DNA of 64,000 nt, taken from contig JACRQE010000003.1 of the NCBI GenBank assembly GCA_016222815.1, positions 1-64,000 on the forward strand, written 5' to 3'. The notes beneath the pieces are model-generated. The model was not told the DNA's origin and did no database searches. It saw nothing but the letters and a program-made list of their open reading frames with translations. The number at the start of each line of letters is the position of its first letter. Positions within the stretch are counted from its first letter, which is position 1. This document shows positions 2 to 25,570 of the stretch, one piece after another. Both the position numbers and the translations under genes were made by a program. This stretch comes from Candidatus Uhrbacteria bacterium. GTDB lineage: Bacteria > Patescibacteriota > Patescibacteriia > 2-12-FULL-60-25.

Positions 2-175
2 ATGCGGAAGAAGTTCCCATTCGTCCAAACCATGTATGAGAAAGAAGGTGTCTCCTTCTGGTCGGTCGGTTACTTCGTTTCAACCGTCGGGGCCAACGAA
101 GAAGTCATCCAGAAATACATCGAACACCAGGGCGAGGAGGATAGAGGACGAGCGAAGCTCGTATTGACCAAATAG
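2..175 (+). CDS. tnpA: IS200/IS605-type transposase, C-terminal part (5' cut by window edge)
   Basis: The frame is open from the window edge and ends in TAG. The last 57 residues contain SFWSVGYFVSTVG, NEEVIQKYIEHQ and GEEDRGRAKL, the usual C-terminus of the small Y1 single-strand transposases of the IS200/REP-associated family. The catalytic HUH and Tyr residues, if present, lie partly outside the window, so intactness cannot be judged. The ATG at base 2 is internal to the family domain and is not proposed as the true start. A perfect 9-bp hairpin follows immediately, as at the ends of IS200 elements. Confidence 0.8.
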   Translation: MRKKFPFVQTMYEKEGVSFWSVGYFVSTVGANEEVIQKYIEHQGEEDRGRAKLVLTK

Positions 176-6195: not shown

Positions 6196-6272
6196 TGGTG
6201 GGCGTGCCAGGACTCGAACCTGGGACCTTCACATTATCAGTGTGACGCTCTAACCACCTGAGCTACACGCCC
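6196..6272 (-). tRNA. tRNA-Ile (GAU)
   Basis: A full cloverleaf: acceptor GGGCGTG/CACGCCC, D-stem GCTC/GAGC, anticodon arm TCACA-CTGATAA-TGTGA with anticodon GAT, T-arm CCAGG-TTCGAGT-CCTGG and an encoded CCA end. Confidence 0.97.
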
Positions 6273-6290
6273 TAAAAATATATTGTTGAA

Positions 6291-6355
6291 TGAACTCGAA
6301 CCTGGAACCTCCCCGGTGTCCACCGGGGCGCTCTAACCACCTGAGCTACACGCCC
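6291..6355 (-). pseudogene. tRNA-Ile-like remnant with replaced anticodon arm
   Basis: The first 27 bases (acceptor 5' strand, D-arm) are identical to tRNA-Ile next door and CCAGGTTCGAG of the T-arm is kept. The anticodon arm is replaced by a CCCCGGTG/CACCGGGG hairpin, and the acceptor 3' strand is lost. The 19-base string CCCCGGTGTCCACCGGGGC also forms the terminator stem near 25.55 kb. It cannot fold as a normal tRNA. It lies directly upstream of the intact gene in transcription order. Confidence 0.75.
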
Positions 6356-6422
6356 TGGAGCCTCTTATTTTGTGCCGCTAGATTACAGTAAGCTTCCTGG
6401 TTTGGCAAGGTCTTGCCGGGGC

Positions 6423-6451
6423 TTGCATTGTTCGGTAATTCTGGCTATTAT
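6423..6451 (+). promoter_or_regulatory. Promoter of mgtC
   Basis: TTGCAT, a 17-base spacer and TATTAT, with the ATG 13 bases after the -10, so a leader of about 6 bases. Confidence 0.6.
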
Positions 6452-6463
6452 TCCCGCGTTCCT

Positions 6464-6949
6464 ATGGAACTTACCTTACAGGAAATTGTCATCCGCTTGG
6501 GGGTCGCCACTATCCTCTCGGGCATAATCGGTATCGAGCGGGAAGTCAGGCAAAAACCAGCGGGCGTCCGCACTAATGCCCTGATCGGCCTCGGTTCGGC
6601 CGCCATGTCTTTGGCTGGCGTCTATGCCGCCATGTCGACTCCTGCGACGACAGATGTTACGCGGATCGCCTCTGTCGTGGTACAAGGTATCGGTTTCCTG
6701 GGTGCAGGCGCCATCATCCAGTCATCCGGCTCTGTCCGCGGTCTCACCACAGCCGCCACCATGTGGGTCGTGGCCGGCATCGGCATCGCCTGCGGCCTGG
6801 GTCTCCTGCAAGTGGCCATGGTCACGGCGCTGATCGTCCTGGTCCTCCTGGCCATCTTCGGCCCGATTGACGCCAGGTTGATGCATGACGAAGTCTTGGA
6901 AGGTGAAGGTTTGTTCAGGAAGCTCGTCAAAGGTAAGAAGAAGGAATGA
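6464..6949 (+). CDS. mgtC: MgtC/SapB family membrane protein
   Basis: This 161-aa protein has about five membrane segments. Family motifs are GIIGIEREVRQKPAGVRTNAL near the N-terminus, GIGFLGAGAIIQ, and VRGLTTAATMWVVAGIGIACG. MgtC proteins modulate the membrane ATP synthase and Mg2+ homeostasis in other bacteria; the role here is inferred by family only. It ends soon after the membrane domain, without the C-terminal ACT-like domain of Salmonella MgtC. The start is fixed by the near-leaderless promoter. Confidence 0.9.
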   Translation: MELTLQEIVIRLGVATILSGIIGIEREVRQKPAGVRTNALIGLGSAAMSLAGVYAAMSTPATTDVTRIASVVVQGIGFLGAGAIIQSSGSVRGLTTAATMWVVAGIGIACGLGLLQVAMVTALIVLVLLAIFGPIDARLMHDEVLEGEGLFRKLVKGKKKE

Positions 6950-6957
6950 AAGATTTG

Positions 6958-6995
6958 GCCGAGGTAGCTCCCCGATGTCGCTCCGCTCTTCGGGG
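6958..6995 (+). pseudogene. Truncated tRNA-Phe 5' end fused to a hairpin
   Basis: GCCGAGGTAGCTC is identical to the first 13 bases of tRNA-Phe 66 bases downstream. It runs directly into a hairpin, CCCCGA/TCGGGG. The rest of the tRNA is missing. The layout resembles the tRNA-Ile remnant. Confidence 0.6.
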
Positions 6996-7036
6996 CAGGC
7001 AGTGGTCCCACTTCGCGAATCATACAGACAATTTAC

Positions 7037-7111
7037 GCCGAGGTAGCTCAGTGGTAGAGCGAAGGACTGAAAATCCTTGCGTCGCCAGTTCAATCCTGGC
7101 CCTCGGCACCA
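7037..7111 (+). tRNA. tRNA-Phe (GAA)
   Basis: Acceptor GCCGAGG/CCTCGGC, anticodon arm AAGGA-CTGAAAA-TCCTT with anticodon GAA, T-arm GCCAG-TTCAATC-CTGGC and encoded CCA. Confidence 0.97.
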
Positions 7112-7114
7112 CAC

Positions 7115-7141
7115 AAAAACAGCTCTCGCAGAGCTGTTTTT
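7115..7141. terminator. Bidirectional terminator between tRNA-Phe and tRNA-Gly
   Basis: AAAAACAGCTCT, CGC and AGAGCTGTTTTT form a perfect hairpin serving both convergent tRNA genes. Confidence 0.9.
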
Positions 7142-7144
7142 GTG

Positions 7145-7220
7145 TGGAGCGGGTAGCGGGAATCGAACCCGCCTCTCAACCTTGGAAGGGTCGCATAATA
7201 ACCACTATACGATACCCGCC
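7145..7220 (-). tRNA. tRNA-Gly (UCC)
   Basis: Acceptor GGCGGGT pairs with ACCCGCT (one wobble). The anticodon loop CTTCCAA gives TCC, the T-arm is GCGGG-TTCGATT-CCCGC and CCA is encoded. Confidence 0.95.
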
Positions 7221-25544: not shown

Positions 25545-25570
25545 GCCCCGGTGTCCACCGGGGCTTGTCT
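25545..25570 (+). terminator. Terminator of the pair
   Basis: GCCCCGGTG, TC and CACCGGGGC with tail TTGTCT. The same 19-base core occurs in the tRNA-Ile remnant. Confidence 0.8.

Follow-up and report, generated by a model that had tools for sequence, protein, structure and literature searches.

Hairpin-bearing tRNA pieces beside intact tRNA genes in a Candidatus Uhrbacteria genome: probable footprints of tRNA-inserting elements that carry a GIY-YIG gene

Endonuclease genes have been described in structured RNA genes or among them in both phages and bacteria. In T-even phages, SegB is a free-standing GIY-YIG homing endonuclease encoded in tRNA clusters; according to the available portions of two papers, it makes breaks within tRNA genes and drives the tandem amplification of tRNA-containing segments via short homologies (PMC13096335, PMC2988022). 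In the rRNA genes of the CPR (Patescibacteria), endonuclease insertions such as that of I-ShaI are found mostly at the top or the base of stem-loops; the main text of that study, as far as it was available, does not contain the word tRNA, and it calls GIY-YIG enzymes sparse and places them outside homing (PMC11270868). The accessible part of a survey of the GIY-YIG superfamily mentions tRNA three times, none of them concerning insertion. In the open-access literature, which leaves aside subscription papers and preprints, we found no published description of the arrangement reported here for bacterial chromosomes.

Here, we describe displaced pieces of tRNA genes in a window of 64,000 nucleotides (contig JACRQE010000003.1, positions 1 to 64,000) of a Candidatus Uhrbacteria bacterium, whose genome (G000; 1.30 Mb, 8 contigs) is referred to as the source genome. 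An earlier note on this DNA had pointed to 5' copies with G+C-rich hairpins ahead of the intact tRNA-Ile and tRNA-Phe genes. Both copies are real by sequence and alignment (Table 1), and they are indeed unlikely to be due to chance, as the alignment scores of 67 (Ile) and 26 (Phe) exceed the maximum of 24 obtained in 196 control alignments against reversed tRNA sequences. When each remnant is folded by itself as RNA, its stability is not out of the ordinary (z -1.07 for Ile and -0.41 for Phe). The fragments are probably the footprints of mobile elements that insert into tRNA genes and that in their complete form carry a GIY-YIG gene and a functional tRNA.

Table 1. Features at and related to the two tRNA sites of the window.
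Feature	Position	Strand	Basis
Intact tRNA-Ile (GAT)	6196..6272	-	ARAGORN and Rfam
AT-rich spacer from remnant to intact tRNA-Ile, too short for an ORF	6273..6293	-	Sequence
Displaced 5' tRNA-Ile piece, tRNA positions 1-61, with a hairpin for the anticodon arm	6294..6355	-	Alignment score 67
Hairpin CCCCGGTGGACACCGGGG at the anticodon-arm place of the tRNA-Ile remnant	6311..6328	-	Sequence; covariation (n=16 such hairpins)
Presumed MgtC-like gene between tRNA-Ile and tRNA-Phe	6463..6949	+	ORF; syntenic in G001 and G003
Displaced 5' tRNA-Phe piece	6958..7006	+	Sequence, alignment score 26; G002 ortholog with a different hairpin
Intact tRNA-Phe (GAA)	7037..7111	+	ARAGORN and Rfam
Intergenic terminator-like hairpin outside any tRNA, 19 bases in common with the Ile hairpin	25545..25564	+	Sequence

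The tRNA-Ile remnant is composed as the earlier note had read it, of a 5' gene part, a hairpin in place of the anticodon arm and a partial T-arm. Its 27 nt at 6329-6355 are identical with the 5' end of the intact gene, CCCCGGTGGACACCGGGG occupies the exact place of the 17-nt anticodon arm, and the sequence that follows the hairpin, AGGTtCCAGGTTCGAGT (6294-6310), represents about half of the T-arm. The gap to the intact tRNA-Ile is 21 nt. The reported identity over 19 bases between the hairpin core and a terminator at 25.55 kb is also correct (CCCCGGTGTCCACCGGGGC). With any two loop bases allowed, the 18-nt core occurs eight times in the genome, twice in tRNA remnants and six times elsewhere, and several of these six have terminator-like A and T runs. 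Among relatives, the tRNA-Ile sites of the congeners G001 and G002 are empty. G003 has the 5' half of the gene (1-36), an insert with inverted-repeat ends around an intact tRNA-Ile and then the 3' half, with no ORF, and G015 has a 5' fragment bearing D-loop hairpins. A GIY-YIG gene at tRNA-Ile was absent in all congeners seen, which makes the assignment of the Ile remnant one step less direct than that of the Phe remnant; by analogy, it may be tied to a GIY-YIG element.

At tRNA-Phe, the fragment had been described as the first 13 bases running into a CCCCGA/TCGGGG hairpin. The 13 identical nt (6958-6970) and the hairpin (CCCCGA...TCGGGG, 6970-6995) are present, but the copy does not end at base 13: CAGG and the rest of the D-loop, CAGTGGT (7000-7006), follow. 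Since D-loop sequence returns after the hairpin, the hairpin lies inside the D-arm and the copy was not simply truncated. The gene between the two tRNAs, which we take to be MgtC-like, anchors the orthology of the tRNA sites through its synteny in G001 and G003. Behind this gene the tRNA-Phe site of G001 is empty. The site of G003 holds, in this order, GCCGAGGTAGCTCAGTGGTA, an inserted hairpin, GAGCGAAGGACTGA, a GIY-YIG ORF with a single frameshift and an intact tRNA-Phe, the hairpin of the 5' tRNA-Phe half being in the D-loop; the window remnant is located where this congener has its nuclease gene. The window genome and G002 have the fragment and hairpin only, and their hairpins differ, while G014 has a fragment with another hairpin and G006 an internal fragment. 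The presence of fragments in several relatives at Phe and Ile indicates that remnants arise repeatedly at the same genes. A search of the source genome found no GIY-YIG gene left at either window tRNA site, which counts against the element reading. The earlier note had offered insertion scars as well as decoys or processing elements as explanations: occupied and empty orthologous sites and the GIY-YIG association support the former well, and the latter is without direct support. The convergent tRNA-Phe and tRNA-Gly genes have a single 18-bp hairpin between them, at 7109-7147 of the window, which is probably the terminator of both.

The layout, which the earlier note had proposed to look for near other tRNA genes and in relatives, recurs in congeners and beyond, and it is common in the source genome. 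Neither of the two absences that the earlier note would have read as simple decay applies. Rfam gives 48 tRNA matches there, two of which are hairpin-bearing pseudo-Thr copies; 11 of the 46 intact genes have a same-strand self-fragment within 500 bp that scores above all controls. The fragments lie upstream of Ile, Phe, Val(cac), Thr(ggt), Asp, Arg(ccg), Arg(gcg), Arg(tct) and Ser(tga), and downstream of Ala(ggc), Gly(ccc) and, for a second time, Arg(ccg). The anticodon arm has given way to a hairpin of 18-19 nt, exactly in its place, in Ile, Asp, Thr (two copies), Arg(gcg), Arg(ccg) and Ala; Phe, Val(cac) and Arg(ccg) have almost the same hairpin inserted in the D-arm, and the Arg(tct) fragment has hairpins in the D-stem and the T-loop. 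At Arg(ccg) and Arg(tct), the small ORFs that separate the tRNA from its fragment encode GIY-YIG proteins. Tandem pseudo-copies occur without a nuclease gene at Thr and Arg(gcg), those of Thr being kept in G000, G001 and G003. At the loci L008, L167 and L076, pseudo-Thr copies and the adjoining intact tRNA-Thr have species-specific bases in common, which suggests that gene conversion may act between the copies. Upstream of tRNA-Ser(tga), at L019, a structured insert flanked by repeats (CGCGAAGCTCGAGTTTATGATYGAG) comes after an 18-nt 5' piece of tRNA-Ser; this insert is of a different kind from those in the other remnants.

Complete copies of the element consist of a hairpin-bearing 5' tRNA piece in which the anticodon arm is replaced, a GIY-YIG gene and an intact tRNA in either order, and a hairpin-bearing 3' piece. 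Two layouts are seen: a 5' piece, the GIY-YIG gene and the intact tRNA (Glu, Leu, Met), or the intact tRNA with its own terminator, the GIY-YIG gene and a 3' piece (Val, Ala, Arg). Two-ended complete elements were found at Ala in G146 and G016, Pro in G215, Val in G134 and Arg in G001, and at Ala in one Woesebacteria and one Uhrbacteria record; complete elements occur in distant families (Ala, Pro, Val) and in Bacteroidota. The end hairpins of eight two-ended elements are identical in four (G001, G146, L228, L256), one base apart in G215 and less alike in three (G016, G134 and the Arg(ccg) element of the source genome).

The splits lie in or beside the anticodon in Glu, Cys, Ile, Phe and Ala, with empty sites in relatives for Phe, Ile and Ala. 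The 5' piece of tRNA-Glu, which is split around a GIY-YIG gene on the same strand as tRNA-Glu, ends at base 35 in genomes of three families, and the split points are 34/35 in Cys, which likewise surrounds a GIY-YIG gene, and 36/37 in Ile. Tyrosine-integrase elements commonly use tRNA genes, and splits in the anticodon region are typical of their crossover sites, so both the splits and the tRNA fragments beside intact tRNAs would fit attachment-site remnants of such elements. This origin is nevertheless very improbable, because the fragments lie 5' as often as 3' and within about 20-500 bp, the ORF between the tRNA pieces in the element loci read is a GIY-YIG gene, and the sole PF00589 match of the source genome (C6:252755) is near neither window site and between no pieces. 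The anticodon loop is also the usual site of introns, and GIY-YIG a usual intron endonuclease. That the loci are decayed group I or II introns with homing endonucleases is scarcely credible even so: in seven element loci there was no match to an Rfam intron family at E values up to 0.1, and with a complete tRNA inside the insert splicing is not needed.

The inner tRNA of an element is not always a copy of the gene that it interrupts. The outer pieces in G215 derive from another tRNA-Pro than the inner intact one, and in G040 a different tRNA-Ala(tgc), with the same anticodon, lies within the split native tRNA-Ala(tgc); a tRNA-Ala gene has apparently been replaced by a foreign one there. The inserts at G003 Ile and G040 Ala lack an ORF, and their inverted-repeat ends are related. 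Further hairpins are present in the D and T loops of the outer tRNA-Ala gene of G040 (L281). In a comparison that used a GIY-YIG profile built from only seven proteins, the inner tRNA-Ala(TGC) of the G016 element is identical to the tRNA-Ala of the element-free congener G035, and the outer tRNA is disrupted. Simple homing predicts an enzyme-resistant rescuing tRNA, so this identity counts against simple homing. At L066/L070 (G004:C19), a second hairpin-bearing pseudo-Arg copy with its spacer begins at the contig end, which may reflect tandem amplification of the whole element.

The source genome has six GIY-YIG matches, one of which, a long reading frame of 444 codons, is taken for UvrC. Three of the five stand-alone genes have a tRNA gene no more than 300 bp away, and two of these tRNAs have displaced pieces. 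Around 40 GIY-YIG loci of relatives (20-kb stretches with about 10 kb on each side, hand-picked from genomes with long contigs, about seven of them already known to be near tRNAs), tRNA density is 0.875 per kb within 300 bp, 0.126 at 0.3-1 kb and 0.030-0.033 beyond 1 kb, so that the density beside GIY-YIG genes is about 27 times background; a tRNA lies within 300 bp in 15 of these loci, always on the strand of the nuclease gene. In two sets not picked in this way, a tRNA was found within 300 bp in 13 of 29 loci (the best GIY-YIG locus per further genome) and in 6 of 28 (a phylum-wide draw). Conversely, GIY-YIG genes do not adjoin tRNAs in 25 of the 40 loci and in 22 of the 28, which speaks against the element reading. 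Stand-alone GIY-YIG proteins occur across the Patescibacteria, with 57 of 57 relatives and 114 of 116 genomes in the phylum draw, both counts including UvrC. The ORFs of the elements are short, about 76-154 aa as read. All four scanned against Pfam have PF01541 above the cut-off, a family that was also found in family searches; no separate DNA-binding domain was found in these four, a further point against the element reading. The nearest solved sequences to one element nuclease are the small GIY-YIG proteins of UPF0213 (PDB 1zg2 and 1ywl; E 2.2e-05 and 1.4e-04), a weak similarity, and no link to mobility or tRNA was seen for either. At L077 (G000:C6:157631), a GIY-YIG gene without a tRNA has several palindromes of about 80 bp at its flanks (TGTCGTCCCACGG...CCGGGGAATGACA), which suggests a second association of GIY-YIG genes with hairpins.

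Beyond the genus, a strict hairpin-core pattern matched 8 of 191 genomes of the class, one of them (G021) by a false match in a coding region, and its reversed control gave one match. In one match list of 31 rows, two were false matches in AT-rich sequence, and in two pairs of rows a single site had been read twice with overlap. A second pattern, applied to one genome for each of 84,980 species, gave 69 hairpin-tRNA stretches, about 47 in Bacteroidota, 18 in Patescibacteria and 4 labelled as neither; since this pattern fixes CCCG/CGGG, the 69 under-represent other stems. An intact tRNA lies within 700 bp of 58 of the 69 stretches and, with the seven-protein profile, a GIY-YIG ORF within 800 bp of 29. 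Relative to the cores, there are 29 GIY-YIG ORFs in 37 kb (up to 300 bp away), 2 in 56 kb (300-800 bp) and 2 in the roughly 383 kb farther out, and all 31 within 800 bp are on the strand of the core. Against the element reading, 40 of the 69 stretches lack a GIY-YIG ORF within 800 bp, among them 15 of the 17 tandem arrays; a nuclease gene is nearby in the other 2. Niastella caeni has five pseudo-copies ahead of tRNA-Ala. In Flavobacterium ustbae six pseudo-copies (three of them exact pattern matches) are followed by an intact tRNA, a terminator, a GIY-YIG gene and a 3' piece with a T-loop hairpin.

Arrays of this kind raise the question of whether a tRNA gene was simply duplicated in tandem, the spare copy decaying and gathering unrelated REP-like palindromes, and GIY-YIG genes merely settling in the same places. 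That arrays without a nuclease gene are common, also at Thr and Arg(gcg) of the source genome, agrees with such a history, as do the use of the same hairpin core as a terminator elsewhere and the fragments of Y1 transposase at four contig ends. We regard it as unlikely, because the hairpins recur in the same tRNA arms across independent tRNAs and phyla, show covariation and stand at both ends of complete elements, because the enrichment of GIY-YIG ORFs is specific to the first 300 bp around the cores and to one strand, and because the Phe ortholog in G003 bears the nuclease gene.

The stem of the hairpin covaries strongly. Across 16 distinct 18-nt anticodon-arm hairpins, most of them found by DNA similarity, one (G146 Val) by a pattern requiring partial pairing and three (G134, G215) read by eye at loci that a pattern of this kind had found, 112 of 112 cells are paired (100%) and 22 are changed on both sides; covariation is 0.582 vs 0.209 after shuffling and at most 0.154 when slid (n=16). 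The hairpins at the Thr loci of G000, G001 and G003 differ by a compensated pair. This covariation means that the stem is either constrained or copied as a unit. The hairpin may have a structural role, as DNA or as RNA; it could be an end of the element, protect the displaced pieces or act in RNA. A role as an insulator that keeps the upstream 5' half from pairing with the intact tRNA is unsupported by equilibrium folding, a model that may itself be poor for tRNA: in five source-genome cases, native acceptor pairing was 0.00-0.03 for the actual remnant, 0.00-0.08 for a copy without the hairpin and about 0.5 for shuffled leaders.

Another proposal gives the hairpin tRNAs a function as RNAs: they would be decoys, or repeats resembling RNA antitoxins, that bind a nuclease directed at tRNA (GIY-YIG or foreign) and that cannot be cut in the anticodon loop. 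It would account for a stable hairpin with compensatory changes exactly in the place of the anticodon arm, for the persistence of Thr pseudo-copies in three congeneric genomes, and for arrays of up to six copies followed by an intact tRNA, a terminator and a nuclease gene, an order that resembles the layout of type III toxin-antitoxin systems. However, the GIY-YIG enzymes known to us act on DNA, most arrays have no nuclease gene nearby, gene conversion can explain the likeness of D-arm and T-arm to the adjoining tRNA, and the window copies lack unusual fold stability. It is therefore quite improbable.

The preferred explanation, mobile elements inserting into tRNA genes, can be laid out as a series of steps. 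The GIY-YIG nuclease would break a tRNA gene in or near the anticodon arm, insertion being mostly in the anticodon loop, and repair from an element-bearing copy would install displaced pieces, the nuclease gene and a working tRNA. The invaded gene would be split into a displaced 5' piece on the promoter side and sometimes a 3' piece, with tRNA function retained through the copy in the element; the displaced pieces would bear hairpins that replace, or are inserted in, the D, anticodon or T arms. Decay of the nuclease ORF would leave a displaced piece with its hairpin beside an intact tRNA, as at Ile and Phe in the window, and tandem copies would form later by recombination between repeats. The scheme builds on what was seen directly: the layouts, orthologous sites in both occupied and empty form, the association of GIY-YIG genes with tRNA genes, and hairpins that covary. 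By analogy with phage SegB, we infer that tRNA genes are cut by the nuclease, which would spread through repair in a homing-like manner, and the hairpins may be element ends or insertion scars.

REP and REPIN sequences with their RAYT transposases are likewise small hairpins multiplied in a genome and associated with a stand-alone enzyme. Their enzyme is of another family, whereas the hairpins described here are in tRNA arms and vary with the element. Matches to PF01797 are present in the source genome only as fragments at four contig ends, with no link to the hairpins. These Y1-transposase fragments, at window positions 5-130 (+) and at the starts of contigs C1, C3 and C7, indicate that an IS200-like repeat probably broke the assembly at the four contig ends. 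REP-like palindromes of the form (GTA)GGGGCG...CGCCCC(TAC), intergenic by appearance, are located at 2259, 33031, 42884 and 52557 of the window. As with SegB, the elements have a free-standing GIY-YIG nuclease adjoining tRNA genes; as far as the available text on SegB goes, they differ in being in bacterial chromosomes, with the gene inside a split tRNA that has a rescuing copy, hairpins that replace tRNA arms and a protein that is a short GIY-YIG domain. As with the CPR rRNA insertions, endonuclease genes lie in structured RNA genes of the same phylum; in the available text, the CPR insertions differ in being in rRNA, mostly LAGLIDADG and in many cases within group I introns (PMC11270868). 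We rate the elements as a kind of free-standing GIY-YIG endonuclease element with an unusual anatomy, in a family that looks widespread and, as far as the open-access literature shows, is undescribed.

Taken further, and as a tentative possibility with the balance somewhat against it, these would be minimal mobile elements of at least two phyla that live in tRNA genes, split the anticodon loop, swap in their own tRNA (sometimes a heterologous isoacceptor, as in G040 Ala and G215 Pro), carry a GIY-YIG gene and mark the displaced pieces with a covarying hairpin. The hairpin-tRNA core would then be functional, in end recognition or immunity, and the arrays in genomes like those of Niastella and Flavobacterium may be resistance or decoy sites. 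The element reading is testable since complete copies occur in cultured Bacteroidota. For many of the stand-alone GIY-YIG proteins of Patescibacteria, the link to tRNA-gene insertion suggests a function. Because the element brings a working tRNA, even single-copy tRNA genes could be invaded without killing the cell. The elements offer an explanation for hairpin-bearing pseudo-tRNAs and their tandem arrays, and they are a possible way to swap a tRNA for a foreign one, as at the tRNA-Ala of G040.
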